Below, piece by piece: positions 1 through 13,418 of a stretch of 64,000 bases of DNA. Location: contig JALHMS010000026.1 of NCBI GenBank assembly GCA_022843925.1, forward strand, positions 1-64,000, in the 5' to 3' direction. Position 1 is the first letter of the stretch. Every line of letters begins with the position of its first letter. Under the pieces are notes generated by a model. It ran no database searches and was not told the DNA's origin. It saw only the letters and a list, made by a program, of their open reading frames with translations. Both the position numbers and the translations under genes were made by a program. Origin of the DNA: Burkholderiales bacterium. GTDB taxonomy: Bacteria; Pseudomonadota; Gammaproteobacteria; Burkholderiales; Ga0077523.

Positions 1-236
1 ACGCCGTCGTCGTTGAGCTGCAGGCGGAACACCTGCCAGGCGTTGCGCTCCAGCGGCGTCAGGCGTCGGTCGAGGAACAGTCGGCGCGGCACGCTCTCAT
101 GGCGGTTGCCGCTGTAGAGGAAACCGTCGGCGGCCGGCGCCGTTCCCTGCGCCGGCTGCAGGTGCTGCAGGGCATCGTCGAAGAGCGCGGACAGCGCAAC
201 GGGGCCTTCGCGCCGTGGTACGCCACCCGTGCTCAT
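1..236 (-). CDS. STY4528-type ICE replication protein, N-terminus only (runs off the window)
   Basis: Only the first 78 residues are in the window; the gene continues leftwards beyond base 1. The ATG at 236 follows the stop of the DUF2857 gene by three bases, so the two are translationally linked. The visible part includes a segment reading LTPLERNAWQVFRLQLN, which resembles the start of the STY4528 family of pathogenicity-island replication proteins that normally follows DUF2857 in PFGI-1/SPI-7-type ICEs. Family assignment rests on this short match and on gene order, so it is an inference. In ICEclc the gene at this position is inrR, and whether this is the same gene cannot be decided from the fragment. 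Confidence 0.6.
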   Translation of the reverse strand, partial: MSTGGVPRREGPVALSALFDDALQHLQPAQGTAPAADGFLYSGNRHESVPRRLFLDRRLTPLERNAWQVFRLQLNDDG

Positions 237-239
237 GGC

Positions 240-800
240 CTACACCAGCCCCTGGTCGATCCAGTTTCGTATTGCCGCCCACACCACCGACATCGGCAGG
301 CTCAGCGCCTCGGCCAGGTCCATGGTCAGCGCCAGCATCGCCATGTCGTCGGACAGGGCGATATGGCGCTCGGTGACGCCGGCCTTCCAGCGCTCCCACA
401 AGGCCACGTCCTGCGCCTCATCGAGCACCGGATGCCGGCCCTTGCGCTTGGGCAGCCCGAGGATGTCACGGCGCAGCGCCACTTCCTGATGCGTGAGGCC
501 GTAGAACTTGCTGACCATCTCCGTGCTCGCCCCCAGGCGCAGCATGCGGTCCACCGTGGCGATCTCCCGCTCCACGTCGTGCACCTGGCTCAGAAGCCGC
601 TTCAATACCTCCCGGTTCACCGACACCGAACACCACGACACCGTGGCATTCACCAGCATGCTCACGAGTTCGGGGTGCTTCAGCGCATCCAGCTCCTCCT
701 CGCCGAAGCCCATGGCCTTGCAGCGGCGCAACTGGCCGTTGCGCAGGTCATGCAGGGCCTGGGCGATCACGGCCTGGTTGAGCGGGTGCGGTGCCGACAT
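240..800 (-). CDS. DUF2857 ICE regulatory protein (BisC candidate)
   Basis: A protein of 186 residues. The ATG at 800 is chosen because AGGAGG lies seven bases before it; the longer open frame to 842 has no such site and overlaps the preceding gene. The sequence has the DUF2857 features of PFGI-1-type ICEs, including a central helix-turn-helix-like stretch (FYGLTHQEVALRRDILGLP) and a Trp-rich C-terminus. It follows the ParB-like gene by 19 bases, in the same operon as alpA and parA. In ICEclc the protein at this place, BisC, acts with BisD as the FlhDC-like activator of transfer-competence genes. Giving that role to this gene is inference from synteny. Confidence 0.72.
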   Translation of the reverse strand: MSAPHPLNQAVIAQALHDLRNGQLRRCKAMGFGEEELDALKHPELVSMLVNATVSWCSVSVNREVLKRLLSQVHDVEREIATVDRMLRLGASTEMVSKFYGLTHQEVALRRDILGLPKRKGRHPVLDEAQDVALWERWKAGVTERHIALSDDMAMLALTMDLAEALSLPMSVVWAAIRNWIDQGLV

Positions 801-819
801 ACGGGAGCCTCCTGCGCGC

Positions 820-2469
820 TCAGGACTCGTGGCCCGGGTCACCGGCTTCCAGATCCAGCAGCCGGCGCGCCAGGCGCAGCAGACGGAACAGCTTCACCAG
901 CGCAGCATCGCTCAGGCGTGTGGCCGAGCCGCCATGGCCATGGAGCAGCGCCGCCAGCTCGTCGGCCAGCCGCGCGCGGTCCAATCCGTTCGCGGCGGGC
1001 GGCGCCGCGCTCAGCGCATGCAGCAGGGTCAGCACCGCCCGCGCGAACGCCGGCAGCACCTTCGCCTGGCCCACGGCCGGCGCCACGCAGACGAAGCCGA
1101 TGCCGCCGTCGCTGGCCTCGATGTGGTCGGCTACCGCCGCATCCCCGGCGATCTCGCGCGCGAACTGCGCGATGTGCACCCGCAGCCGATCCGGCGCGTC
1201 CAGCCCCGGCTCGACATACCAGACGTCCGAGATGGGATAGAGCCCGCCGACCTGCACGGGGATCGCACGCAGCGCATCGGCCTCGAAGTCGGGCAGCTTG
1301 TCGCCGAGCTGGTCCGCGACCATCCGCTGGATGGACTGCAGGCGCTCGGTGGTCGGTGCCGGTGTCACGATGTGCCCTTGCAGGCGCTCGTCGTGTTGCC
1401 CGTGCTGTTCCTCCGGCGCTCCGGGCGATGCAGACGGTGTCGCTGCTGGCGCCGGAGGCGTGGCGTCGCGCGGCACAGACGAGGCGGGTGGCTGCTGAGG
1501 CGCGGAGACCGGCGGGGGAGGAGCAGCAGGCACGACAGGCGCTGCCGGTGGCGTCGGCACCGCTGGTTCGCTGGTCAGCGCACGCTGGCGGCTTTCGCTG
1601 TCGTTGATCTCCAGCGCCAGCGTGTCGTAGTCCGCTTCCAGCAGCTCGGCCATCTGGCCCACCAGCTCGTCCTGCACCCGCTGCGGCGAGAAGTCGTCCG
1701 GCTGTGTGTCGAACTGCGTCAGTACGTCCTGAAACAAGGTGGCGAAGTCCACGGCCACGGTGCGGCCCAGCGCACGCCGCTCCCAGGTGCGCTCGCACGC
1801 CTTGCGCAGCACCGCGAGCCGGTCCACCTGATGCCGGCCCAATCCGCCGTACAACAGCGTCGGGATCGCCGGCAGCAGATAGCGCACCGCATCGTTCATG
1901 CGGCTGATGTGTGACTGCGGCACCGGATAGCCGTCGGCAGTCAGCCGCCGCGCGAGTTCGCTCTGCGACAGCGCCTGGCCGCTTTCCTGCTCGTAGAACT
2001 CGCGCGCCTTCTCGATGCCCAAGGCCCGCTCGATGAAGGTCAGCCCGCCGCGCAGCTCGTTCTCGGCCAGATGCCCGGTCAGCGCCACGATTTCGCCGCG
2101 CGCCGGCCACGGGCGGAACAGGCACGCAATGCGGAAGAAGCGTTCCTCCTTGGTCTCGCTCCACAACTCGCGCAGGATCGCCAGCCGCGTGTTGCCGCCG
2201 TTGCGAATGATGTAGTGCGCCTCGCCCGGCCTGCGCGTGATCGCGGGGGGCGCGTCCAGCCCGCGTTCGCGGATGGACGCCTTGATCTCCGCATAGGCCG
2301 GGTTGCGCGTCACGCGCGGGTCGTGGTCGTAGGGCCGCAACTGGTCCAGCGTCACCACCATCGGCGTGTCGGCGATGGGGTCGCTCAAGGTCGCGGCCGA
2401 AGGGCCGCTGCGCTCGAAGCCGGTGGCCAGCAGCTTGGCAGCCATGTCCTGCGGCGTCAGCTCAGCCAC
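820..2469 (-). CDS. ParB-like ICE protein (BisD candidate)
   Basis: A 549-residue protein of the PFGI-1-class ICE ParB family. The GTG at 2469 is chosen because AGGAG sits seven bases upstream; it overlaps the stop of the small gene before it by eight bases. The N-terminal third has the ParB/Srx fold pattern (VTLDQLRPYDHDPR, then IRERGLDAPPAI and a GGNTRLAILREL motif), followed by a helix-turn-helix region (SQSELARRLTADGYPVPQSH). A Pro/Ala-rich linker at about residues 310-370 leads to a separate C-terminal domain. Such proteins sit between parA and DUF2857 in this ICE family. In ICEclc the equivalent, BisD, is half of the bistability activator; this name is inferred from position. Confidence 0.75.
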   Translation of the reverse strand: MAELTPQDMAAKLLATGFERSGPSAATLSDPIADTPMVVTLDQLRPYDHDPRVTRNPAYAEIKASIRERGLDAPPAITRRPGEAHYIIRNGGNTRLAILRELWSETKEERFFRIACLFRPWPARGEIVALTGHLAENELRGGLTFIERALGIEKAREFYEQESGQALSQSELARRLTADGYPVPQSHISRMNDAVRYLLPAIPTLLYGGLGRHQVDRLAVLRKACERTWERRALGRTVAVDFATLFQDVLTQFDTQPDDFSPQRVQDELVGQMAELLEADYDTLALEINDSESRQRALTSEPAVPTPPAAPVVPAAPPPPVSAPQQPPASSVPRDATPPAPAATPSASPGAPEEQHGQHDERLQGHIVTPAPTTERLQSIQRMVADQLGDKLPDFEADALRAIPVQVGGLYPISDVWYVEPGLDAPDRLRVHIAQFAREIAGDAAVADHIEASDGGIGFVCVAPAVGQAKVLPAFARAVLTLLHALSAAPPAANGLDRARLADELAALLHGHGGSATRLSDAALVKLFRLLRLARRLLDLEAGDPGHES

Positions 2470-2698
2470 GGCCGTTCTCCTGCGCCTGCCGGTCGGCGCG
2501 GCGAAGTTGCGCGCGGGCATTGCGGTCGGCACGGTGGTCGCTCGCAGTCGAACTGGTGTAGATCGACGCGCAGCCTGGTTTCGTGAATTTCAGGTGCCCG
2601 CCGGACGTGCGCACCACGCGCCAGCCTTCGCCCAGCGCGAACTCGATCAGCGCGCGCAGCCGTTCACGGCCGCGCGCCAGTTCATGTGCGCTCGCCAT
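2462..2698 (-). CDS. Small protein in the ICEclc shi position
   Basis: A 78-residue protein. The ATG at 2698 has GGAGG eight bases upstream and lies inside the last 17 bases of parA, so translation is coupled. Its middle part (GWRVVRTSGGHLKFTKPG) resembles the short RNA-binding fold of HicA-like proteins, with the conserved GGH-x-K/F pattern, but the rest is basic and glutamine-rich and no family is certain. In ICEclc a small gene called shi lies between parA and bisD and contributes with parA to growth arrest of transfer-competent cells. The shared position is the only support for a similar role here. Confidence 0.5.
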   Translation of the reverse strand: MASAHELARGRERLRALIEFALGEGWRVVRTSGGHLKFTKPGCASIYTSSTASDHRADRNARAQLRRADRQAQENGRG

Positions 2699-3548
2699 GG
2701 CTGGCCCCTCCCGCATCGGCCCGGCCGGTGACCAGCGCGAAGCGCTCCCGCCACGCGGGGAACAGCTCGCCGGCCAGCGTGCGCATGGTGTCCAGCGCCG
2801 CGGGCGCCGTGCGCCCAGCCGGCCGCCGGTACTCCACCCGGTGCACCGGCAATCCTCGTGTCGCAGCGCGCGGATAGGCTTCGATGGCCGGCACGTTGGT
2901 GTCCAGCACCTGCACGCCGGCCTGTTCCTGGAACACCTGTCGCAGCGCCTGCTGGACCAGCCGCGCGTTCGACGACACCGGATGCACGCGGTTGATGAGC
3001 AGGCGCAGCGGCGGTGGCTCGATGCCCAGGTGCCGATACGGCGCGATGTCCTCGATCAGTTGCAGCGTGCCGCGCCGCAGCTCGCGCGCCGCGAGGATCT
3101 CCGGCGTCACCGGCGACAGCGCCAGGTCGGACGCCAGCACCGCCATCTCCAGCAGCACGCTGCGCGCGCCCTGGGTGTCGATCAGCAGCAAGTCATAGTG
3201 CGTGCGGAAGACGGGCAGCAAATGGCGCAGTCGCAGGCGCCCATCCGGTGCGTGCAGCAGTAGCGTGTTCAGCTCGCCGCGGTCGTCGTTGGAGAGCACC
3301 AGGTCCAGGCCCGCGATCGCGGTGCGCGACACCAGTTGCTCGATGCGCCGCTCGTTGAAGGCCAGCATCTCGTAGATGCCGCCGGGCGCGCGCACGTCCA
3401 GCGTGAAGTAGCTCGACAGCGTGGGCTGCACGTCCAGATCCAGCAGCAGCACGCGCAGCCCGGCATCGGCGATGAAGCCGCCCAGGTTGGCTGCCGTCGT
3501 GGTTTTGCCCACGCCGCCCTTGGTCGAAATGATGGACACCACCTGCAT
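2682..3548 (-). CDS. parA: ParA-type partition ATPase of the ICE
   Basis: A 288-residue P-loop ATPase of the ParA/Soj class. The deviant Walker A motif KGGVGKTT is at residues 10-17 and the switch region (LLLDLDVQPTLSSYF) follows at about 40-55; a Walker B-like LLLIDTQG is near 120. The ATG at 3548 is chosen for its GAGGAG six bases upstream; the upstream ATG at 3572 has none. It is in the PFGI-1/ICEclc order alpA-parA-small gene-parB. ParA proteins of such elements stabilise the excised form or, in ICEclc, take part in the growth-arrest programme with shi. Biochemical class is clear; the exact role in this element is inferred. Confidence 0.88.
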   Translation of the reverse strand: MQVVSIISTKGGVGKTTTAANLGGFIADAGLRVLLLDLDVQPTLSSYFTLDVRAPGGIYEMLAFNERRIEQLVSRTAIAGLDLVLSNDDRGELNTLLLHAPDGRLRLRHLLPVFRTHYDLLLIDTQGARSVLLEMAVLASDLALSPVTPEILAARELRRGTLQLIEDIAPYRHLGIEPPPLRLLINRVHPVSSNARLVQQALRQVFQEQAGVQVLDTNVPAIEAYPRAATRGLPVHRVEYRRPAGRTAPAALDTMRTLAGELFPAWRERFALVTGRADAGGASHGERT

Positions 3549-3588
3549 GAGCTTCTCCTCGTCGAATGGCATGAACCGAGAAGAAGCG

Positions 3589-3807
3589 TCAGGCGCGTTC
3601 TTTGAGGCGATCGGCGATCCACTGTTCGATCTCCACCGAGTCCCAGCCCACCGCGCGCACGCCCAGGCGCAGCGCCTTGGGGAACTTGCCTTCCTTCATC
3701 AGGCTGTAGATGTGCGCGCGCTTGAAGCCGGTCTTGGCTTCGACCTCGGCGCGGCGCAGGATGCGGTGTTCGGTCGGTGCTGCCGTGGCGGCGGTCTGCG
3801 AAGACAT
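3589..3807 (-). CDS. alpA: AlpA-family excisionase-like regulator
   Basis: A 72-residue MerR/AlpA-type winged-helix protein: ILRRAEVEAKTGFKRAHIYS, then MKEGKFPKALRLG and VGWDSVEIEQWIADR, the standard AlpA layout. The ATG at 3807 is preferred because AAGGAG lies eight bases upstream; a GTG nine bases earlier sits directly on that site. It is the first gene of the operon leading to parA and the ParB-like gene, as in ICEclc, where the alpA promoter is the bistable switch point. AlpA proteins act as DNA-binding regulators or excision factors; which applies here is not visible. Confidence 0.85.
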   Translation of the reverse strand: MSSQTAATAAPTEHRILRRAEVEAKTGFKRAHIYSLMKEGKFPKALRLGVRAVGWDSVEIEQWIADRLKERA

Positions 3808-3880
3808 GAGGGTCACTCCTTAACGCTCAGTGGCGCTGATTGGCGTGACTCGAATTAAGAACGCCGCGTTGAAGAAAGAC

Positions 3881-3915
3881 ACCGCAAATGCGGTATTCGC
3901 GACCGCAGATACGGT
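3881..3915. promoter_or_regulatory. Two 14-bp palindromes upstream of alpA (candidate operator)
   Basis: ACCGCAAATGCGGT at 3881-3894 is a near-perfect palindrome (six-base arms, two-base centre). ACCGCAGATACGGT at 3902-3915 is a close copy. Their starts are 21 bases apart, two turns of the helix, so both face the same side of the DNA. They lie 74-108 bases before the alpA start codon, in the short gap between alpA and the BisR-like gene, where an activator of the alpA operon would be expected to bind. The binding protein (BisR-like, BisDC-like or AlpA itself) is not known from the sequence. Confidence 0.65.
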
Positions 3916-3925
3916 CTGGCATCGC

Positions 3926-4687
3926 TCAGGAAGTTGTGCTCTGCAAATTGCGCCGAGCCAGTGCGAACTTGGCCTGCAGGGTGCGCTCGGTGATGCCCAT
4001 CGCGTTGCCGTGGTGCGCCACCATCGCGCTGATGATGGCCTCCTGCGTCAGGAAGCTGGAATACGGCATGCCGCTGGGCGACTTGCCCAGCAGCAGCGTC
4101 AGTAACCCGCCAACGATGTTCAGGTAGGTCGATTCGCTGCGCGGCCCCGGCGTGTTCGCACGCTCCGCGTCGGCCGCGCAGGCGGCGTGCGTTCTGAGCA
4201 GCGCCTCATGCTCGGCGCGCAGCGTCTCGTGCACGCCCAAGTGTTCCGCCAGCCGCGCCTTGATCGCTTCCCGCTCGACCAGCAATGCGCCCACTGTGTC
4301 CAGGCTGATCGCCGGGTGAAGCGCACGCTCGATCTCATCGAACAGAAACGCCGGTTTCTCGCCGGGGTAGTAGTGCGCCATCCAGGCTTTCAGATCGACG
4401 TGCCGCACCGTCAGCGACGAGTCGTCCATCGCCAGGCCTTGCGTGTCCCGCCCCAAGCCCTCCTTGCCATACGGCATCTCGCCGTGAGCCAGCGCATCGA
4501 AGATTCTTTCGGCGTTCAACCGCAGCATCGGCCAGCGCGGAAACTCCGTTGCCTCCGGCAGAGGCCGCTGTCCCAAGGTCGCCAGGATGCGCCGCTCGAA
4601 GCGCAGCAATCCGCTCCAGCGGATTGCCGCCTCGATCGGGCGGTAGTAGGTCTTGGCGCCATCGGCCAGGCTGCTCGACTTCGGCAT
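3926..4687 (-). CDS. BisR-like ICE regulator
   Basis: A 253-residue protein of no domain I can name. The ATG at 4687 has GGAGG eight bases upstream and is preferred over the ATG at 4702. The N-terminal half is rich in Trp and Arg, and a segment near the C-terminus (LTQEAIISAMVAHHGNAMGIT, shown in part) looks like a helical DNA-binding or oligomer region. In ICEclc a protein of about 250 residues without recognised domains, BisR, is encoded just upstream of alpA and activates it. Size, strand and position all agree with that here. The match to BisR is inference that an alignment would settle. Confidence 0.55.
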   Translation of the reverse strand: MPKSSSLADGAKTYYRPIEAAIRWSGLLRFERRILATLGQRPLPEATEFPRWPMLRLNAERIFDALAHGEMPYGKEGLGRDTQGLAMDDSSLTVRHVDLKAWMAHYYPGEKPAFLFDEIERALHPAISLDTVGALLVEREAIKARLAEHLGVHETLRAEHEALLRTHAACAADAERANTPGPRSESTYLNIVGGLLTLLLGKSPSGMPYSSFLTQEAIISAMVAHHGNAMGITERTLQAKFALARRNLQSTTS

Positions 4688-5216
4688 ATCGCGCGCCTCC
4701 ATTCGTCATCGCACCGAGTCCAAGCACGCGCACCCGCCGTACAGGCGGCGTGCGTGGCTGTCCAGGAATCTCCGGGCGAAACGAGCAGGTGGCGAAGCGG
4801 CGAAGACCGTGGCATCGTTGATGCCGCCGGTTTCGTTGCGAGATGCGCGCCTTGCTGCGCATGGCGCCATCACTCACAATTCGCAAGCCGCGAAACACGC
4901 TGTCACCAGCGTCATTCGCGGGCACCATGCTTGACCCGGATAACCAGGCCAAAGTCTTTGCAGGGAAAGAGGCCCAGTAAAGCGCGATCAGCTCAACACG
5001 CCAGAGCCGATGCGCATGCGGCAAGCACTGTTGCGCCGCGCGTCTTCGCTGTGACGCGCCACGATGGGCATGCGAAGTTGCTCGCAGGATGCCAACGGCA
5101 AGCGCGAGCAACGCCTGAGTGCAGCGCGCCCGTGCACCGCCAATGGAATCCCGCTGTGGCAAAACAGGTCTGGCGCTTTGACCAAAATGGAATCGGTCAA
5201 CCCGCCTGAGGCAGCC
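4688..5216. other. 529-base gap upstream of the BisR-like gene
   Basis: No reading frame on either strand has protein-like composition or a convincing start here. The gap separates the BisR-like gene from the stop of the LysR gene that precedes it on the same strand, so it should hold the promoter of the BisR-like gene. An imperfect inverted repeat is visible around 4725-4756. I see no clear -35/-10 pair or LysR box. Confidence 0.5.
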
Positions 5217-6128
5217 TCATGCGAGCCGTTGCGTATCCAACGGCATATGGCCGACACGCTGCGCACGGTCGATGAAGTGGCGCAGCGGCTCTGACATCGC
5301 GCCCTCGGGATGTAGCAGGTAGGTCGTCAACGCCGCCGAGTCTTCATCCAGCGGCCGGACGATCACGTCCGCCTGCCGGCATGCCACCACGTGCGCCGCG
5401 GTGGAAAACCCCACGCCATAGCCGGCCGCCACCAGGGCCAGCATCAGCGAGTGGGTTGTCACGTACTCGGCCACGACCGGCGGTGTCTCCACCAAGCGCA
5501 GAAGGCGCTCGCATTGCCGGCTGCACTCCTGACAAACCTGCGGGTGGCACAGCACCAGCGGGTAGCCCACCACCTCTTCCAGCGGTACCCGCTTGTGCGC
5601 CAGCAAGGGGTGCCGCGCGGGTATGGCCACCACCAACGGGTCTTGCCACACCGGCCTGGCGACCACCCCGGCCTCCATCTCGCCGGCCATCGCAAAGGCC
5701 GCGTCGTAGAGGTCGTTGCTCAGCCCGCCCACCACCTGCGACAGCGGCGCCTCGAACAACCGGATGCCCACTTCCGGCGCCTCCTCCCGGCACAGCGCGA
5801 GCAACGCCGACAGCCGGGTCCGCCCGACGCCGCCGGCCAAGGCGATGCGCAGGGTGCCCCGGTGTCCCGCCGCCACCGCCCGCGCCTTGGTCTGGGCTTG
5901 CTCAAAGGCCAGCAGCACGCGCCGGGCCTCCTCCAGGAACACCTGCCCGGCCGGGGTCAGGCGCACGGTGCGCGGCGTGCGCTCCAGCAGCGTCACGCCC
6001 AGGTCCGCCTCCAGTTGGCGGATCGTGCGCGACAGGGGCGACTGCTCCACATGCAGGCGCCGTGCCGCCCGGCCAAAGTGCAACTCCTCGGCCACGGCGA
6101 TGAAACAGCGAAGATGGCGTAAGTTCAT
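5217..6128 (-). CDS. LysR-family transcriptional regulator (ICE-borne)
   Basis: A 303-residue LysR regulator. The helix-turn-helix is at residues 1-60 (MNLRHLRCFIAVAEELHFGR, then AARRLHVEQSPLSRTIRQLE), followed by the usual effector-binding domain. The ATG at 6128 is chosen because the family starts at this point and a run of six G lies about ten bases upstream. The effector domain carries a cluster of cysteines (CHPQVCQECSRQC) that its relative at 6961-7869 mostly lacks. It sits upstream of the BisR-like gene. In ICEclc a LysR protein, TciR, activates bisR, so this is a candidate for that role by position only. Confidence 0.85.
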   Translation of the reverse strand: MNLRHLRCFIAVAEELHFGRAARRLHVEQSPLSRTIRQLEADLGVTLLERTPRTVRLTPAGQVFLEEARRVLLAFEQAQTKARAVAAGHRGTLRIALAGGVGRTRLSALLALCREEAPEVGIRLFEAPLSQVVGGLSNDLYDAAFAMAGEMEAGVVARPVWQDPLVVAIPARHPLLAHKRVPLEEVVGYPLVLCHPQVCQECSRQCERLLRLVETPPVVAEYVTTHSLMLALVAAGYGVGFSTAAHVVACRQADVIVRPLDEDSAALTTYLLHPEGAMSEPLRHFIDRAQRVGHMPLDTQRLA

Positions 6129-6317
6129 GTGATTCCCCCCAGAAAGTGGAGTCCATTCCTCTGGCCGTAGGGAACGGCATGAGTGCTTCCCGGTGGCGAT
6201 GCCGGTCACAGAGGCTTTCCAGTTGCCGCCATCCGGCCTTCAGTCGCCGGCGAGGCGGCGAGTGTCCAGGCAAGGCCGGGTTATTCCATCGGTGTTGCCA
6301 TATCACACAAAACCACG

Positions 6318-6343
6318 GAGAATCAATAATAATTCTCATTAGC
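6318..6343 (+). promoter_or_regulatory. Fur-box-like inverted repeat
   Basis: GAGAAT at 6318-6323 and ATTCTC at 6332-6337 form an inverted repeat with an AT-rich eight-base centre, followed by ATTAGC. The whole resembles betaproteobacterial Fur boxes of the AATAATTCTCATT kind. It lies 24 bases before the exbD fragment, an iron-uptake gene piece, which fits an iron-responsive origin. With its gene broken the site may be without function. Confidence 0.5.
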
Positions 6344-6360
6344 ATCTGTGTCTGAATGGA

Positions 6361-6620
6361 GTGAAGCCGATCAAGCCCGACGTGGCGAACCTGTCTGTCA
6401 CCACCCACGGCAGCGTGTTCTGGAACGACGAACGCATGGGCGACGAGCAGCTCGCGCAGCGGCTGCAGGCCTCCGCGCCGCGTCAACCGCAGCCCGAGGA
6501 CTTCATCCGCGGCGACCGCCTGGTGGATCTACGAGCGCGTCGCCCAGGGGATGGCGGCTACGCAGAAGTCCGGGGTGTTGGAGCTGGGCTTCGTGACCGA
6601 CCAGGGCACGAGCGGGGTGA
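6361..6620 (+). pseudogene. exbD: exbD fragment (frameshifted C-terminal half)
   Basis: The frame from 6361 encodes a stretch typical of the periplasmic half of ExbD: VANLSVTTHGSVFWNDE, then GDEQLAQRLQ and PQPEDFIRGDRLV. At about 6527 one extra A shifts the frame; removing it gives VVYERVAQ, and the following sequence in that frame reads AATQKSGVLELGFVTDQ, the normal ExbD ending. The N-terminal membrane helix and any exbB or tonB partner are missing. ExbD is part of the TonB energy-transfer complex. This is therefore a broken remnant, stranded between two LysR genes of the ICE. Confidence 0.75.
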
Positions 6621-6960
6621 GCCGAAAGACACCCCCATGAAACTGCATCGGCACGCCCGCCCTGACGCCGGCGTGTCGTCGTCGGCTGCACCGATCGCGG
6701 ACACCAGCCCGCGTGCGCGCCTGCGCGCGTGCCCGGCACACCGGCTGATTTACCAGCGTTGCGGACGCAGCACACTGACCATCAGCATTCAATGCCCGGG
6801 CTGTGTGCGCCGGCCTGCTCCGCGCGTGTCGGCGACGGGCCTGTTCCCGACGGGCATGAGTGCTTCGACGCGATGCCATCGAAGGAGGTGCTGACGGGAT
6901 GCGGATGAAGATGCTGGCGCCCGATAGGCCGAACCAGAAGAAGACAAACAGGAGGTGGCC

Positions 6961-7869
6961 TTGGATTTCAGGTTGCTGCGTTACTTCGTCGCAGTTGCGG
7001 AAGAACTGCATCTGGCCCGTGCAGCCGAGCGTCTGGGCATCGAGCAATCACCTGTGTCGCGTGCGATGCGCGACCTGGAAAGCCAGCTTGGCGTGCAGTT
7101 GTTCGACCGCAGCACACGCCTGACGCGGCTGACCTGGGCCGGCCAGGTGTTCCTCGGCGAATGCCGGCGCGTGATGGCCACCGTGGAGCAGGCAGTCAAG
7201 AGCGCCAAGGCGGCGGCACAGGGCTACCAGGGCCATCTGCGCATCGCCATCTGCGACAGCCTGGCGCAGCCCCGCATCGCCACCCTGCTGGCACGCAGCC
7301 GTGAGGATGAGCCCGAGCTGGAGATTCGCGTCTTCGAGCTGCCGTTCGCGCAGCAGCTCAAGATGCTGCACGACGATCTGCTGGACATCGGCTTTGCGTT
7401 GTCAAACGCGGTGCATGATGGCCTCGTCGCCGAGCCGGTGTGGACCGATCCGCTGTCGGTGATCGTGCCCACACGCCATCCCTTGCTGGCACACGTGCAG
7501 GTGCCGCTGGCCGAAGCCCTGAAGTTCCCGCTGGTTCTGTGCCATCCCGAATCGGGATCGGGCTGCCGCCATCAGATTCAAGCGATGCTGCAGGACGCAG
7601 GCACGCCGCTCAAGCTGGTCGATGAAGTGACCAGCCTGGGCGTGATGTTGACCCTGGTCGGCGCCGGCTACGGCATCGGCTTCGCCATCGCCTCGCAGGT
7701 GCAGACGCTACAGCGCCCGGACATCTCCATTCGCCCGCTGGCCGGCACCCCGCCGATGCTCTCTACCTACCTGCTGCGCCGCCGGGGCGAACCCTCGGAG
7801 CCCATGAGGCGGTTCATCGAGCGGGTGAAAGACGGGGACGCGCCGGTCGATGATGAGCCAGTCCTTTGA
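6961..7869 (+). CDS. LysR-family transcriptional regulator (second ICE copy)
   Basis: A 302-residue LysR protein with N-terminal helix-turn-helix (DFRLLRYFVAVAEELHLARA, then AERLGIEQSPVSRAMRDLE) and a standard effector domain. TTG at 6961 is preferred as start because GGAGG lies five bases upstream and family members begin at this point; a GTG two codons earlier overlaps that GGAGG. It is clearly related to the LysR protein at 5217-6128 along its whole length, and the two genes point away from each other. It is the last gene before the predicted right end of the ICE. Confidence 0.85.
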   Translation: MDFRLLRYFVAVAEELHLARAAERLGIEQSPVSRAMRDLESQLGVQLFDRSTRLTRLTWAGQVFLGECRRVMATVEQAVKSAKAAAQGYQGHLRIAICDSLAQPRIATLLARSREDEPELEIRVFELPFAQQLKMLHDDLLDIGFALSNAVHDGLVAEPVWTDPLSVIVPTRHPLLAHVQVPLAEALKFPLVLCHPESGSGCRHQIQAMLQDAGTPLKLVDEVTSLGVMLTLVGAGYGIGFAIASQVQTLQRPDISIRPLAGTPPMLSTYLLRRRGEPSEPMRRFIERVKDGDAPVDDEPVL

Positions 7870-8101
7870 GGACGCAGCTCACCTGTCCGTTGCGGTCTGT
7901 GGCGTGATGTGTCAGTAGACAGATAGACTTCGGAATGAAATCCGATGCTCTGGCTGTTGATGGATGTGCTTGGCTCGCTTTGGATCACCCGCAACGGCCT
8001 GCGTTGACCAGGCCGAAGACTTGAGTCCACAATCGAGTCCATTCCGTGACGCCTGGATCGGAAAAGACGTTCGTAATAAACGAGTTAGCGAACGGGTGCT
8101 G
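7870..8101. other. ICE terminal non-coding segment
   Basis: These 230 bases lie between the last LysR gene and the predicted attachment site. They hold no convincing gene on either strand. Conserved ends of ICEs usually carry recombinase or accessory-factor binding sites; none can be named here. Confidence 0.45.
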
Positions 8102-8119
8102 TTCCCTTCACCCGCTCCA
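8102..8119 (+). other. attR: 18-bp copy of a tRNA-Gly 3' end
   Basis: TTCCCTTCACCCGCTCCA reads as the end of a tRNA-Gly: T-loop end, T-stem 3' side, acceptor 3' strand CACCCGC, discriminator T and CCA. No tRNA 5' part precedes it, so it is not a gene. ICEclc-type elements insert at an 18-bp tRNA-Gly 3' end, with the intact tRNA at the integrase end and the bare 18 bp at the regulatory-gene end. That is the arrangement seen: ICE regulatory genes to the left, host genes to the right. The left end and integrase are outside the window. Confidence 0.75.
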
Positions 8120-8826
8120 GATCCTGTCCGGTGGCTGCTCACCATCGACCGCTGCGGGCGCACCCCAGGAATACACCGGCCGATTCACCGGCCGATTCAC
8201 CGGCCAATTCACCGGCCTCATTCTCCCAGGTCGTGGACTCCCCGACCGTAGTGCCGCTCCTGCACGCAGACACCCGCATCTAGAAGCGAGACCATTCTGC
8301 TGACTCCGGCCAGCGCGCGCGGTCCGGAATGCAGCCGGCGCGGTGGGCGCTGCGCCGATTGGGATGCGTGGATCGGCCCGCAGAGCGGAATCCTGTGCGA
8401 TCACAACCGCGGCTCGATGGTCCGTTCTCGGCGAACCCGTCCGCATTCGTCCCGTCGCCCGACGTCCTCCGATACTCGGCGTCGAGCGCTGTGTCGCGGG
8501 CGATCGACTGGACGGCAGACCAAACCGACGAGCACTTCTCGATCGACGGCTGCGTCGCCGTGACGACGCCCGGGATCACGTTCCCCCGGCGTGTCCGATC
8601 CGCGATGTTTGCATGCCCGTTTCCGGACGACGGCGTGGCCAGGGCCTGTTCGCGCGGGTGTCCACAGTGCGAACAGGCCCGACGCACTTCGCTCGGCGCT
8701 GTGCCGATCGTGCGACCGTGCACCGTATCGGTCGGGGCGTGGCGTGCGTGCAGGCGGTGCGCTAGAGTGGCCGCTAGCGTCCGTCAATGCAGGCAAGGAA
8801 TCCGGCAAGGATCTGCTGTTCGTCGC
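8120..8826. other. Host intergenic region between attR and the cyclase gene
   Basis: About 700 bases without a convincing gene. An open frame runs from 8329 into the cyclase gene, but its translation is rich in Arg, Cys and Ser without any domain pattern. The minus-strand frame at 8280-8723 is similarly unlike a protein. Apart from the tandem repeat at 8174-8221 I see no named element. Confidence 0.5.
8174..8221. repeat. 12-bp tandem repeat, about four copies
   Basis: CACCGGCCGATT occurs twice without a change, then as CACCGGCCAATT, then as a decayed fourth copy. It starts 55 bases to the host side of the predicted attR. The units contain CCGG/GGCC palindromic cores. No coding or CRISPR explanation applies: the unit is short and there are no spacers. 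Confidence 0.8.
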
Positions 8827-10467
8827 ATGCACGAAGAACCTCCTCTCGATATGCAGCAGCTGTACGGCGCGATGGTGGATCGCGCTCCGGTGGCGATCTT
8901 CGTCCACTCCGGCGACCGCATCATCTTCATCAACCAGACGGGCGTCGCACTGCTCGGCGCGGCGCATCGCGGCGAGATCCTCGGGCGCAACCGGTTCGAA
9001 TTCCTGCATCCCGACGATGTCGATCTCTCCGTCGCGCGGGTCACGAAGATGGCCGCGGGCGGGCTCGTTCCCCGCATCGAGCAGCGCTATCGCCGCTTGG
9101 ACGGTACCTACGTCTATGGCGAGGCCGAGGCCATCGGTCTCGAACACCAGGGCCGCAAGGTTTTCATCGTCTTCGTTCGCGACGTCACGGTGCGCCGCGC
9201 CCGCATGGAGGAGCTGCGTCGGGCGCGGGCCGCCATGGAACTGGCGCCGGACCCGATCTTCCTGATCGACCGCGAAACCCTCGCGTACACCGACGTGAAC
9301 GCCGCGGCGTGCCAGATGCTCGGATACCCGCGCCAGGAGCTGCTCTCGAAAGGTGTGATGGATGTCACCGTCGGCGCTGTCGCGGCGGATTTCCATGCAC
9401 TCTTCGACGCCGTCGCGGCCGCGGGGCAGGAGCATGTCTCCGAGGAACATCGCGTGCGGCATTTCCGGCGCCGCGACGGGACGACGGTCCCCGTGGAGAT
9501 CCGCCGCAGCGCGCTCCGAAGCGACGGACGCGATCTGATCGTCTCCGTCGCACGCGATCTCTCCGAGCGCCTGCGGATCGAGGAGGCCCTGCGGCTGCGC
9601 GATCGCGCGATCGAGGCGAGCGACAGCGCGATCCTGCTGGTGGACATGCGCGACCCTTCCCAGCCGGTCGAGTACGTCAACCGGGCCTTCGAACGCATGA
9701 CCGGGTACCGCGCCGCCGAGACCATCGGTCGCAACTGCCGTTTCCTGCAGCGGGGCGATTCGCAGCAGCCGGAACTCGATCGCCTGCGCGCGGCGATCGC
9801 TGCGGGCACGGATGCCCATGTGCTCCTGCGCAACTACCGCAAGGACGGTCGCCTCTTCTGGAACCGGCTCAACGTGTCGCCGGTCCGGGACGACGGCGGG
9901 ACCATCACGCACTACGTGGGTGTCTCCACGGATGTCACCGATCTCACGGCCGATCGTCACGAGCTGCAGCACCGCGCGACGCACGACCCGCTCACGAGTC
10001 TCGCGAATCGTCATCTGCTCGGCGAGCAGCTCGAACGGGCGCTGGCGCAGGCCGAGCGCCACGGACGCGGCCTTGCCGTGGTCTTCGTCGATCTCGACGG
10101 CTTCAAGGAGATCAACGACCGGCTGGGTCACGCCGTCGGCGATGCGATGCTGCGCATTGCCGCGCGTCGACTGGAAGCGTGCGTGCGCGAAGGCGACACC
10201 GTCGCGCGAACCGGGGGGGACGAGTTCGTCCTCGTGCTCACCGACCAGACCACGGAGGACCGCCTCGCCGCGGTGCTCGAGCGGGTGCGCGAGACGCTCT
10301 CGCTCGACTATCCGGTCGAGGGGCAGTCGCTTCCCATGTCGTGCAGCATCGGCGCGAGCATCTATCCGCGTCACGGCGTCACGGCGGATGTCCTCGTGCA
10401 GGAGGCCGATCGCGCGATGTACGCGGCGAAGAACGCGGGGCGCAACGCCTGGCGCGTCGCGCCGTGA
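8827..10467 (+). CDS. PAS-PAS-LOV-GGDEF diguanylate cyclase
   Basis: A 546-residue protein with two PAS domains (about 10-125 and 130-250), a LOV-type PAS (about 255-380) and a GGDEF domain (about 385-546). The LOV domain has the flavin signature GRNCRFLQ with the photoreactive Cys at residue 304, NYRKDG and FWN. The Gln normally found in the last strand (GVQxDVT) is Ser367 here. The cyclase active site GGDEF is intact at 463-467, and an RxxD inhibitory site lies at 454-457. It should make c-di-GMP, probably under blue-light control. ATG 8827 is chosen because the frame before it is not protein-like. No transmembrane segment is seen, so it is likely cytoplasmic. Confidence 0.88.
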   Translation: MHEEPPLDMQQLYGAMVDRAPVAIFVHSGDRIIFINQTGVALLGAAHRGEILGRNRFEFLHPDDVDLSVARVTKMAAGGLVPRIEQRYRRLDGTYVYGEAEAIGLEHQGRKVFIVFVRDVTVRRARMEELRRARAAMELAPDPIFLIDRETLAYTDVNAAACQMLGYPRQELLSKGVMDVTVGAVAADFHALFDAVAAAGQEHVSEEHRVRHFRRRDGTTVPVEIRRSALRSDGRDLIVSVARDLSERLRIEEALRLRDRAIEASDSAILLVDMRDPSQPVEYVNRAFERMTGYRAAETIGRNCRFLQRGDSQQPELDRLRAAIAAGTDAHVLLRNYRKDGRLFWNRLNVSPVRDDGGTITHYVGVSTDVTDLTADRHELQHRATHDPLTSLANRHLLGEQLERALAQAERHGRGLAVVFVDLDGFKEINDRLGHAVGDAMLRIAARRLEACVREGDTVARTGGDEFVLVLTDQTTEDRLAAVLERVRETLSLDYPVEGQSLPMSCSIGASIYPRHGVTADVLVQEADRAMYAAKNAGRNAWRVAP

Positions 10468-11552
10468 CGGTGGATCCGACGAGCGATGCGCCGTTCGCCG
10501 GGCGCATCGTGGCTTGGCAGCGCGTGCACGGGCGCCACGACCTGCCGTGGCAACGCGTGCGCGACGCCTACCGTATCTGGCTCTCCGAGATCATGCTTCA
10601 GCAGACGCAGGTCACGGCGGTCATTCCGTACTACGAACGCTTTCTCGCACGCTTTCCCGACGTCGCGACGCTCGCGGCCGCACCCCTCGACGATGTGCTC
10701 TCGCTCTGGAGCGGCCTCGGCTACTACGCGAGGGCGCGGAATCTCCATGCCGCGGCGCGCGCCGTGATGACCGAGCATGCAGGGGAGTTTCCGCGCGCTG
10801 CCGATGCGCTCGCCACGCTCCCGGGCGTGGGGCGATCCACCGCCGCCGCGATCGCGGTGTTCTCGTTCGGTGTCCGCGCGGCGATCCTCGATGGCAACGT
10901 GAAGCGGGTGCTCGCGCGGTGGCGTGGCATCGACGGATGGCCCGGGAGTCCGGCCGTCGAGCGGTCGATGTGGGCGCTGGCCGATTCGCTGCTGCCTGTG
11001 GAGCACGTCGAGGCTTACACGCAGGGGCTCATGGATCTCGGCAGCAGCGTGTGCGCGCGGAGCCGGCCGCAGTGCGGTGCGTGTCCCGTGCGCACCGACT
11101 GCGTGGCCCATCGCGATGGCACGACGGCCCGGCTGCCGGCCTCACGCCCCGCAAAGGCGCGGCCTGAACGCGCAGTCGCGATGCTCCTGATGCGGCACGA
11201 CGGCCGGGTCTTCCTCGAACAACGGCCGCCGAGCGGCATCTGGGGCGGGCTGTGGTCGCTGCCCGAGATGGCGCAGGACGCGACGCTGGTCGACACGTGC
11301 CGCGAGCGTTTCGGCGTGCGCGTCTTGACGTCCATGGCCGGCCCATCGCTGCGCCACGGCTTCACGCACTTCTCGCTGACGATTCATCCCTGGCATGTCG
11401 AGGTGGTCCCGGAGCCGCGGCAGGTCGGCGAGGCAGCCGGGCGATGGTTCCCGATCACCGAGGCGCTCGCGTCCGGCGTGCCGGCGCCAGTGCGCATCCT
11501 GCTGGAGGGGTTGGACGCGTCCGCGTTGCCGCTCTTCAACCGCGCCGGATGA
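10464..11552 (+). CDS. mutY: Adenine DNA glycosylase MutY
   Basis: A 362-residue MutY, which removes adenine opposite 8-oxoguanine. The catalytic region (WLSEIMLQQTQV), helix-hairpin-helix (LPGVGRSTAAAI) with the catalytic Asp in ILDGNVKRV, and the iron-sulphur Cys pattern C-x6-C-x2-C-x5-C (CARSRPQCGACPVRTDC) are all present. The C-terminal third is the NUDIX-like domain that recognises 8-oxoguanine. The GTG at 10464 overlaps the stop of the cyclase gene (GTGA), so the two are coupled. Length is normal for the family. The 3' end overlaps the converging LON-domain gene by 17 bases. Confidence 0.95.
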   Translation: MTVDPTSDAPFAGRIVAWQRVHGRHDLPWQRVRDAYRIWLSEIMLQQTQVTAVIPYYERFLARFPDVATLAAAPLDDVLSLWSGLGYYARARNLHAAARAVMTEHAGEFPRAADALATLPGVGRSTAAAIAVFSFGVRAAILDGNVKRVLARWRGIDGWPGSPAVERSMWALADSLLPVEHVEAYTQGLMDLGSSVCARSRPQCGACPVRTDCVAHRDGTTARLPASRPAKARPERAVAMLLMRHDGRVFLEQRPPSGIWGGLWSLPEMAQDATLVDTCRERFGVRVLTSMAGPSLRHGFTHFSLTIHPWHVEVVPEPRQVGEAAGRWFPITEALASGVPAPVRILLEGLDASALPLFNRAG

Positions 11553-12123
11553 GGTGGAGGGCGCGGTCGAGGCGCGCGAGCGGATCGTTCGCCACGAGCA
11601 TCCGCTGCTTTTCGAGTGCGTCGAAGGGCAGCACCTCCGCCAGCCGGTAGCTGACCCACGAGGCATCCTCGAACCGGTGCGGCGGCGGGAACCACGCGTC
11701 GCCCACGCGCTCGATCAGTTGCTGCAGGACCCTCACGCACAGCGAGTGACTTTCGGGCACCGGAACGCTGGTCTCCGGTACGAGCGTCACCACATCGCCG
11801 CGCAGCAATCCGTCGTCCTGCACCCGCGTCGTCAACAGGCGGAAGCGCTCGGTACCGGCCGTCATCACGTGATAGAGATCCGGCTCGGGCATGTCCCACT
11901 CGATGATCGATGCGAGGCAACCCATGTCCGCCGGCATCGCGGGCGAGCCCACTTCCTTCCCTTCCTGGATCAGGCAGACCCCGAAGTCGGTGCCGTCGCG
12001 CAGGCAGTCGCGAAGCATCGCGAGATAGCGAGGTTCGAAGATCCGCAGCGGCAGCCGGCTGCCTGGGAACATCACAGTGCCCAAGGGGAACAGCGGAACA
12101 TCTCTGCGGCGGTCGGTGGCCAT
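11536..12123 (-). CDS. LON substrate-binding domain protein
   Basis: A 195-residue protein made only of the N-terminal LON substrate-binding (PUA-like) domain: VPLFPLGTVMFPGSRLPLRI (residues 9-28), FEPRYLAML, and DFGVCLI. The protease and ATPase parts of Lon are absent, and there is no sign they were ever present. Such stand-alone proteins are common in proteobacteria; their role is not settled. It lies nine bases after ubiX on the same strand and ends inside mutY on the other. Confidence 0.9.
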   Translation of the reverse strand: MATDRRRDVPLFPLGTVMFPGSRLPLRIFEPRYLAMLRDCLRDGTDFGVCLIQEGKEVGSPAMPADMGCLASIIEWDMPEPDLYHVMTAGTERFRLLTTRVQDDGLLRGDVVTLVPETSVPVPESHSLCVRVLQQLIERVGDAWFPPPHRFEDASWVSYRLAEVLPFDALEKQRMLVANDPLARLDRALHLIRRG

Positions 12124-12132
12124 GGCGTCGGG

Positions 12133-12780
12133 TCAGTCGGTGCGGCGATCGTCGGGGGTGTCGCGCCCGCCCCAGCGGGGCACGAGCGCGTGGGGGACGC
12201 GCAGTTGATCGAGGATGCGCGCGACGACGAAGTCCACGAGGCCGCCCACGCTGTCGGGCCGATGGTAGAAGCCCGGATTGGCCGGCAGGATCACGGCCCC
12301 GGCCTTCGCCAGACGCAGCATGTTCTCCAGGTGCAGCACCGAGAACGGCGTCTCGCGCGGCACGATCACCAGCGGTCGACCCTCCTTCATGCTGACGTCG
12401 GCGGCCCGTTCGATGAGATTGTCGGCGAGGCCCGCGCTCACCGCGGCGAGGGTCCCCATGGAACAAGGGCAGATCACCATCGCATCGGCCGTATTGGAGC
12501 CGGAGGCCACGGGGGCGTACCAGTCGTCCCGCCCGAAGACTTCCAGGCGATCCTCTGCCACGCCGTGGCGATCGAGGAAGTAGCGGCGGGCCTCCCGGGG
12601 CTGGGCCGGCAGCTTCAGATCCATCTCCTGGTGCGCGACGATCTGCGCGACCTGGGAGTAGATCAGCCAGACCCGCACATCCGCCTTCAGCAGACATTCG
12701 AGCAGGCGCAGTCCGTAGGTCATGCCCGATGCGCCGGTGAAAGCGAGCGTGACGGTGCGGGGGCGTGTGGCAGTGGTCAT
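12133..12780 (-). CDS. ubiX: Flavin prenyltransferase UbiX
   Basis: A 215-residue flavoprotein that makes prenylated FMN for the UbiD decarboxylase of ubiquinone synthesis. The N-terminal FMN loop is TGASGMTYGLRLLE (about residues 14-27). The SNTADAMVICPCSMGTLA stretch and the R-E-TPFS motif (VPRETPFSVLHLENM) match UbiX/Pad1. The ATG at 12780 is chosen because the open frame before it, up to 13140, lies within the gene at 12777-13418. It overlaps the upstream adhesin-E-like gene by four bases. Confidence 0.95.
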   Translation of the reverse strand: MTTATRPRTVTLAFTGASGMTYGLRLLECLLKADVRVWLIYSQVAQIVAHQEMDLKLPAQPREARRYFLDRHGVAEDRLEVFGRDDWYAPVASGSNTADAMVICPCSMGTLAAVSAGLADNLIERAADVSMKEGRPLVIVPRETPFSVLHLENMLRLAKAGAVILPANPGFYHRPDSVGGLVDFVVARILDQLRVPHALVPRWGGRDTPDDRRTD

Positions 12781-13418
12781 CGGGGGGCTCCGCCCGGGGG
12801 CGTGGCGGGCGGTGCGGCCGGATCGATCGATGTCGTCGCGGTGGGCGTGGTTGCCGCAGCCGGTGCCGGTTGGGATTGCGCTGCCTCCATCCGGAGGCGC
12901 AGCACCGATGCCTCCAACTGGTCGACCTCCATCTTCAACTGCTCGAGGTCCTTCCGCCGCGCGGCGAGCTGCGCCTCGTCGCGGGCGAGATCGGCGTCGC
13001 GTCGCCTGCGCGCTTCCACGAACGGACACATGACATTGCCGAAGCGATCCCCGATCGTCTCGGGCACGATGGCCACGGCTTCGGCATCGGCGTTGCTGGA
13101 GGCTTCGAGTGTCACGCCCTCGTCGGCGAAGACCTGCCACGCGAGTGCCCGCACGGTGTGGTCGCGGCAGTGGATGCGTTCCTGGTAGATGGCGCTCTTC
13201 GCCATGCCCGTCCGGACCCGCACGGGCTTCGCGAAGGTCACCCGCCGCCAGTAGGTGATCTCGTCTCCGCGGACGGAAATCATGGATCGGTCGTACGCGT
13301 GCTGGTCGTTGCCGCTCGCATCGACGCGGGCCCAGTCGGCCGCCATGCCAGTGACCGGCGACGCCCCCGCGGCGAGGAGCGCCAGCACCACCGGAACGCC
13401 GAGGTGGCGCGGGATCAT
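12777..13418 (-). CDS. Surface-adhesin-E-like exported protein with coiled coil
   Basis: A 213-residue protein with an N-terminal signal peptide (about residues 1-26, ending GMAA). The first half follows the adhesin-E-like pattern found in many betaproteobacterial exported proteins: W-x-x-V at the start, then [18 protein letters not shown], and two Cys (HCRDH, MCPF) that may pair. Residues about 130-180 form a charged coiled coil, followed by a low-complexity Ala/Pro/Thr tail. It overlaps both rapZ (four bases) and ubiX (four bases), so it is in their operon. Function is unknown. Confidence 0.7.

Follow-up and report, generated by a model that had tools for sequence, protein, structure and literature searches.

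What does the 3' end of a tRNA-Gly gene mark when it stands without the rest of a tRNA? The window analysed here, which covers the first 64,000 bases of contig C26 in a Burkholderiales draft genome (G000; 64 contigs, 5.57 Mb), raises this question with the sequence TTCCCTTCACCCGCTCCA at positions 8102–8119 of the + strand. In the window, ARAGORN called no tRNA and Rfam reported no family at gathering scores, so the tRNA 3' end stands alone, as a preliminary description of the stretch had stated; it is the sole window match to this 18-base core at up to three mismatches (0.08 expected by shuffling). We consider 8102–8119 to be, almost certainly, the right attachment site (attR) of one integrated integrative and conjugative element (ICE) of the ICEclc family, from the branch that uses tRNA-Gly(CCC). 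A tyrosine integrase would have recombined the element's attachment site (attP) with the tRNA end, restoring the tRNA gene, and integration would have left an intact tRNA at the left end (C47:20774–20847) and an 18-bp copy at the right end. The DNA around the core divides as follows.

1–8101: right arm of the integrated ICE, by similarity to the Pseudomonas veronii Pvy copy and to G002:C50; the contig begins within the element
8102–8119, + strand: 18-bp core, attR, TTCCCTTCACCCGCTCCA; a tRNA-Gly 3' end, supported by its copies in the genome and by comparison of right ends
8120–8826: host flank, from attR to the PAS-GGDEF gene; at most 0.45 identity over 40 bases to 23 other right-end flanks
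8827–10467, + strand: host PAS-GGDEF gene; PF00990 and PAS domains (scan of 8773–10464), start codon chosen within an open frame beginning at 8329, frame checked

An ICEclc-type element to the left and host DNA to the right had been proposed earlier; TIGR03764, ParA and LysR genes on one side, and on the other a PAS-GGDEF gene also present in congeners, bear this out.

Copies of the core and the two element ends

The exact 18-mer occurs three times in the 5.57-Mb genome, where ~0.0002 copies would be expected by chance (our own arithmetic, equal base frequencies). A search for a tRNA-Gly ending in the core, the check that the preliminary description had suggested, returned two intact genes: tRNA-Gly(TCC), with the core at C27:40–57, and tRNA-Gly(CCC), with the core at C47:20830–20847. 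Past tRNA-Gly(CCC), C47 continues with 107 bp of ICE left end and then stops. The 125 bases from the start of the core to the contig end are 95.2% identical to pKF715A of Pseudomonas putida KF715 and 94.9% identical (93% covered) to the P. veronii Pvy plasmid, and the left end is 98% identical to contig C48 of congener G006, which continues into an integrase start. Since C47 carries the ICE left end and C27 the tRNA-Thr spacer described next, tRNA-Gly(CCC) is the occupied gene. Entry of the element into tRNA-Gly(TCC) on C27 might be suggested by the shared 18-mer and by the end of that contig 39 bp after it, but we regard it as very improbable: these 39 bp are the start of the G006 tRNA-Gly(TCC)–tRNA-Thr spacer and not an ICE end, the left end lies on C47, and the PAS-GGDEF gene of congeners adjoins tRNA-Gly(CCC). 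As far as the contigs reach, tRNA-Gly(TCC) is refuted as the target. The predicted partner of the lone repeat, an intact tRNA-Gly with the same 18 bases, was thus found joined to an ICE left end, albeit on another contig; two genes fitted that prediction, and the CCC one is right.

At the other border, the right arm in the window is 94.4% identical to the ICE in the Pvy plasmid, with 99% of the 8119 bases covered. Congener G002 carries the same right end on its contig C50 (99.56% over 1135 aligned bases, window 7001–8135), and the alignment extends 16 bases behind the core, after which the flank is different. A scan of the named genomes with the BisR-like protein gave 38 BisR-like loci; in 19 of them a core with up to three mismatches stands behind the conserved end, with unrelated flanks. 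Together with the window, G002, G006, G011 (core variant TTCCCATCACCCGCTCCA) and Pvy, these make up 24 right ends, chosen for having the core, among which mean pairwise identity was 0.876 at −80 to −41, 0.865 at −40 to −1, 0.923 in the core, 0.290 in the 40 bases past it and 0.268 in the stretch after those. Similarity among related right ends stops at the core. The reading as a chance 18-mer, or as an old tRNA fragment not linked to any element, is refuted by the expected count, which is 0.08 even at three mismatches, and by the combination of conserved end and unrelated flanks in the 24 right ends; practically no probability remains for it.

The host site and the unassembled stretch

Some congeners have the site without an ICE. 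In three of the 11 (G004, G005 and G007), tRNA-Gly(CCC) lies directly before a PAS-GGDEF gene whose product is 41–47% identical to that of the window gene over the aligned protein stretches; the anticodon was called by ARAGORN for G005 and G007 and read from the sequence for G004. DNA similarity to the window continues into the genes behind the PAS-GGDEF gene in G005 and G007. On the far side of the tRNA, two stretches of G007 match C47 (72% over 1685 bp and 75% over 579 bp), in genes that we take to be thiG, trmB and hemW. Most simply, C47 and the DNA from 8120 onward would have flanked a single ancestral site. Congener G006 shares both the core and the host flank that follows it but is itself occupied by an ICE there, whose right arm differs (84% at the LysR gene); the state of the site could not be decided in G001, G003, G008 and G010. 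Comparing the 8120 flank with relatives, as had been proposed, therefore gave empty sites in three congeners and no ICE-free relative in which 7870–8119 is joined to that flank.

Two short repeats were seen in the host flank. A palindrome resembling repetitive extragenic palindromes (GGGCCTGTTCGC-15-GCGAACAGGCCC) lies at 8642–8680, with similar short stretches on C8, C9 and C11 and in congeners G001 and G006, and a tandem repeat with a 12-bp step (ATTCACCGGCCG) lies at 8171–8217, just behind attR.

An IntB13-like tyrosine integrase beside attL is a trait of the ICEclc family, and its gene would be expected next to the left end. In both pKF715A and the Pvy plasmid, a 617-aa integrase with arm-binding, central and catalytic integrase domains starts just downstream of the matching left end, and the integrase start motif was found at base 256–258 from the core start in 27 of 29 related left ends (the exceptions being L140, at base 129, and L153, where none was found). 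C47 stops 132 bp before this usual start. Contig C34 bears ICE conjugation genes (topB, TraD, traC, PFL_4695, TIGR03759); in a scan of nine chosen frames of its first 20 kb, four matched. Scores on C34 were 1472.6 bits for TIGR03744 (TraC, PFL_4706), 1114.4 for TIGR03754, 295.2 for TIGR03759 and 149.5 for TIGR03765. C34 was linked to the window via relatives: aligned to one of them, it starts ~4.1 kb left of where the window begins, in reversed orientation. The site would be read, from the left, as the C47 host genes, tRNA-Gly(CCC) with the left attachment site (attL), the integrase (unassembled), cargo, the conjugation genes (C34, reversed), ~4 kb unassembled, the C26 genes from bisC-like to LysR, attR and, last, the host PAS-GGDEF gene. 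What was found comprises the two element ends, the abrupt border, ICE conjugation genes in the same genome and congeners with an empty site; continuity across the contig gaps and the presence of the integrase are what we infer.

Several observations weigh against this reconstruction. The C47 and C26 ends are on separate contigs and are presumed to belong to one element. The assembly contains no integrase of the expected kind: a search of the genome with the KF715 integrase gave five matches, the best-scoring 31% identical over 402 residues and two short ones 49% identical over residues 33–111 (with one stop) and 46% over 46 residues, and a PF00589 search gave eight. At least 90% identity would be expected for the true integrase; none of these matches comes near that, so the gene is taken as not assembled. 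The preliminary description had predicted an integrase gene beside the partner tRNA; it is absent from the assembly, C47 ending before the expected start. At the host site, transporter-like genes lie between the C47-like genes and the tRNA in G007, and the left neighbour in G005 differs from C47, only the tRNA matching. At the right border, 19 of the 38 BisR-like loci have no core at up to three mismatches. The contig runs out in six of these (L096, L107, L109, L123 and L124 end inside the element, L110 139 bases past the last similarity), while the other 13 (L092, L093, L104, L111, L113, L114, L120, L121, L125–L129) lose similarity to the window before the core although the contig continues. 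L121 is similar up to 6 bases before the core and then diverges; L111 and L113 diverge at window position 7883 and L120 at 7826. No core was found at these early-divergence points even with up to five mismatches allowed. Finally, G006 pairs a left end 98% similar to that on C47 with a right end that is 84% similar to that of the window (LysR gene).

This last pairing would also be expected if two elements stood in tandem at tRNA-Gly(CCC), the C47 left end coming from one and the window right end from another. Similarly, G002 has the window right end at 99.6% and another element's left end at its own tRNA-Gly(CCC) (76% over 75 bp, with an integrase start 65% identical to residues 2–50 of the KF715 integrase), and layered insertions occur in L153 and L154. 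We nevertheless consider a tandem unlikely, as the genome has a single match to TIGR03744 traC and no fourth copy of the core, though either might lie in an unassembled stretch. That the element is a decayed island or scar without the ability to excise appears about equally unlikely. It would fit an integrase that is not assembled, in a genome that is a draft; against it, a second species has a near-identical end (99.6%) before a different flank, which suggests that the element moved recently, the two core copies are intact and do not differ, and traC and TraD are open frames. The reading of one integrated ICE with attR at 8102–8119 is preferred over both. Left ends of another type stand at tRNA-Gly(CCC) in G002 and G009. 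In G009 a different island with tRNA-Gly ends (G009:C73, locus L041, ~8000–12880) lies upstream of the PAS-GGDEF gene, and its genes, as read from translations, include a DNA methylase-like and an ATPase-like one.

Choice of tRNA-Gly gene and proposed strand exchange within the repeat

We asked why tRNA-Gly(CCC), and not tRNA-Gly(TCC) with the same end, is used. In this genome the two genes are alike over their last 30 bases, and the CCC gene is occupied. Thirty tRNA/left-end loci were fetched from 38 named genomes, of which 29 bear this left end; an intact tRNA-Gly, always with anticodon CCC, stands at the start of 28 of them, and L154 begins at a 3' fragment. The left-end query included the tRNA-Gly(CCC) gene, which favours CCC sites, and a full-length match in G068 (78%) was left out of the fetched loci. 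Among the matches listed for this query, the TCC ones end at query base 74–81, that is, without the left end. TCC genes with such an end were sought in 39 genomes, and 28 gave a match. A full TCC gene with the exact core of the occupied CCC gene was found in G000, G042, G061, G062, G064, G070 and G071, genomes that are not all independent, and the CCC gene was used in 7/7; G073 was excluded from this count, its TCC match not being an intact tRNA. These data leave it evenly balanced whether the 18-bp repeat does not itself select the site, with the integrase reading tRNA bases beyond it or TCC insertions being lost when the Tyr-Gly-Thr cluster is cut. Since the TCC gene lies between tRNA-Tyr and tRNA-Thr (in six of the seven genomes, where the contig is long enough), selection against insertions at this cluster would be as good an explanation as recognition by the integrase. 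Recognition of the anticodon arm is further weakened by L154 (Piscinibacter sakaiensis), if the ICE entered the fragment directly.

At L154 (core at 1519, reverse strand) the left end stands at a ~36-bp tRNA-Gly 3' fragment, with a whole-tRNA match ~2 kb away, and elements seem to be stacked there at one tRNA. L165 (G073:C51) has a tRNA-Gly(TCC)-like 3' fragment that extends over 44 bases from the anticodon loop, with no intact tRNA; a different element, one that does insert at the TCC gene, may have its border here.

The border itself can be placed more closely with this set of natural insertions.

8111–8112: proposed strand-exchange place, core bases 10–11; from the Pvy plasmid integration and attL/attR differences

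Unique ICE sequence ends at 8101 and unique host sequence begins at 8120. Both core copies are identical in this genome, which alone cannot decide the exchange point. The P. veronii Pvy ICE, which belongs to the tRNA-Gly(CCC) branch, is inserted in a KorB-domain gene of a pCAR1-like plasmid. In pCAR1 the target is GCTTGTAG-CC-TTCTCC; the junctions are GCTTGTAG-CC-CGCTCCA on the left and TTCCCTTCA-CC-TTCTCC on the right, and at the switch point target and ICE have only CC (core bases 10–11) in common. Because the Pvy junctions share just CC, strand exchange would take place within core bases 10–11, which are window positions 8111–8112; 8102–8110 would then probably be element DNA and 8113–8119 host DNA. 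The earlier claim that the border was fixed to the base was therefore too strong: unique sequence meets the repeat at 8101/8120, and the strand switch would lie at about 8111–8112. The Pvy record (NZ_CP039632.3; L036 27977–27994, L053 ~10001) has ICE ends pointing opposite ways and some plasmid genes twice, and by these signs it is rearranged or duplicated.

Eighteen named genomes have both cores, and attL was compared with attR in each: the two agree in 11 pairs and differ in seven. One of the seven, L103, was set aside since its attL (L154) is the tRNA fragment described above. In the remaining six, the differences fall at core positions 3–9 and none at 10–18. In L097, L099, L105 and L117, the host tRNA half pairs with the attL letters tested but not with one or more of the attR letters, as would be expected if attR positions up to 9 had arrived with the element. 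L112 differs at core positions 3–4 alone and carries little information; the pairing flags for the 75-nt tRNAs of G061, G064 and G071 were one base off at the acceptor position and were left out. Two points speak against this refinement. Letters of attR are free to drift after integration and would then look similar, which makes the attL/attR differences weaker evidence than the plasmid case. In Pseudomonas bharatica CSV86 (L118), the G at core position 9 of attL forms a wobble pair with the host half where the A of attR would pair properly, letters that would favour a switch to the left of core position 9 there. The right-end core of L118 reads TTCCCTTCACCCGCTCCA, and the cited part of PMC9298801 prints TTCCCTTCGCCCACTCCA as attR. 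In the parts of the literature covered by our search, no published strand-exchange position or arm sites were found for the tRNA-Gly(CCC) branch, which is no proof of absence.

Sites for the arm domain of the integrase may also be recognisable.

8024–8042, + strand: paired repeat AGTCCA-N6-AGTCCA, candidate arm-type integrase site of the right end, by its conserved position in relatives

This pair lies 78 bases before the core in 18 of the 19 named right ends (all except L112), and a like pair lies ~145 bases from the core start in 27 of 29 left ends; of the two others, L153 has a right-end-type pair at 106, and no pair is present in L140. Seventeen of 19 bases agree between the right pair here and the left pair of G006, a match that none of 300 shuffles (two-base blocks) reached. 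C47 stops before the left pair, and the right pair alone is visible in this genome. By their placement, the AGTCCA pairs are candidate sites for binding of the integrase arm domain. L153 (Lysobacter ruishenii) has, at 1557–1756, a second core and left end 182 bp behind the first, with the right-end-type pair between them, an arrangement like the scar of a deleted element beside another.

Genes of the right arm and comparison with known elements

The right arm carries the following genes.

240–842, − strand: bisC-like gene, DUF2857 protein (PF11198, E 7.5e-64); name assigned from gene order
820–2532, − strand: bisD-like gene, ICE ParB family (TIGR03764 ICE_PFGI_1_parB, E 2.1e-120, above cut-off)
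2462–2716, − strand: small gene in the shi position; no family match, annotated as a HicA-family toxin in the Pvy copy
2682–3572, − strand: parA (PF13614, E 2.5e-26)
3589–3816, − strand: alpA-like regulator, 75 aa; an open reading frame, with an AlpA family annotation at the matching place of the Pvy plasmid
3926–4702, − strand: bisR-like gene, 258 aa; no Pfam domain, 38 related loci in named genomes
5217–6209, − strand: LysR-type regulator (PF03466 and PF00126)
6955–7869, + strand: LysR-type regulator, last ICE gene before the border (PF03466 and PF00126)

The order and families of this bisR/alpA/parA/shi/bisD/bisC module fit ICEclc, whose alpA-parA-shi-bisDC order is driven by bisR and whose BisR, of 251 aa, is reported to lack Pfam domains (cited part of PMC7423338). 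The individual Bis names are assignments from gene order and missing domains.

Like ICEclc of Pseudomonas knackmussii B13, as described in the cited parts of the sources, the element has the alpA-parA-shi-bisDC order, an 18-bp tRNA-Gly repeat and the ICE conjugation families; the trait of the family, a direct repeat of the tRNA-Gly 3' end at both borders with an intact tRNA at one, is present. The ICEclc repeat is GTCTCGTTTCCCGCTCCA and its target tRNA-Gly(GCC) (PMC9960961, PMC8704644, in part), and both repeat and anticodon differ here, placing this element outside ICEclc in the strict sense. The mfsR-marR-tciR operon of ICEclc, as the cited part of PMC4063739 describes it, was not recognised in the 8-kb arm, which has two LysR genes instead. 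The anticodon of the target gene is CCC, the trait of the tRNA-Gly(CCC) branch. ICEclc-family elements that have tRNA-Gly(CCC) as target and an 18-bp repeat have been published (cited parts of PMC8704644, PMC6563109, PMC9960961 and PMC9298801). Among them, ICEXTD of Azoarcus sp. CIB has this target and a repeat ending in ...TTCCCATCGCCCGCTCCA (PMC8704644, PMC9960961, in part); ICEclc and ICEXTD were compared with this element through published descriptions.

ICEbph-sal of Pseudomonas KF strains has 18-bp repeats and a tRNA-Gly(CCC) target, and its published repeat TTCCC(T/A)(T/C)(C/T)(G/A)CCCGCTCCA covers the present core (cited parts of PMC6563109 and PMC8704644). Core and left end of ICEbph-sal in pKF715A are those that resemble C47 at 95.2%, and pKF715A gave no match to the window right arm at megablast sensitivity; six such elements are reported, in Pseudomonas only, in the cited part of PMC9960961. 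ICEbph-sal is marked by bph and sal catabolic cargo. The cargo of the present element is not seen, the region behind attL being unassembled and no search aimed at bph or sal genes having been made, and for this reason it is assigned to the tRNA-Gly(CCC) branch and not called ICEbph-sal. Of the naphthalene ICEs, the Pvy copy shares the right arm at 94.4% (99% of 8119 bases) and, unlike this element, sits in a plasmid gene and not in a tRNA; the right end in P. bharatica CSV86, host of ICEnahCSV86, carries the core found here. With this element, the tRNA-Gly(CCC) branch of the ICEclc family is extended to the genus of this bacterium, where the same tRNA gene is repeatedly occupied and two species share an element end that is nearly identical. 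Elements of this kind are already well described, and this one is a further member.
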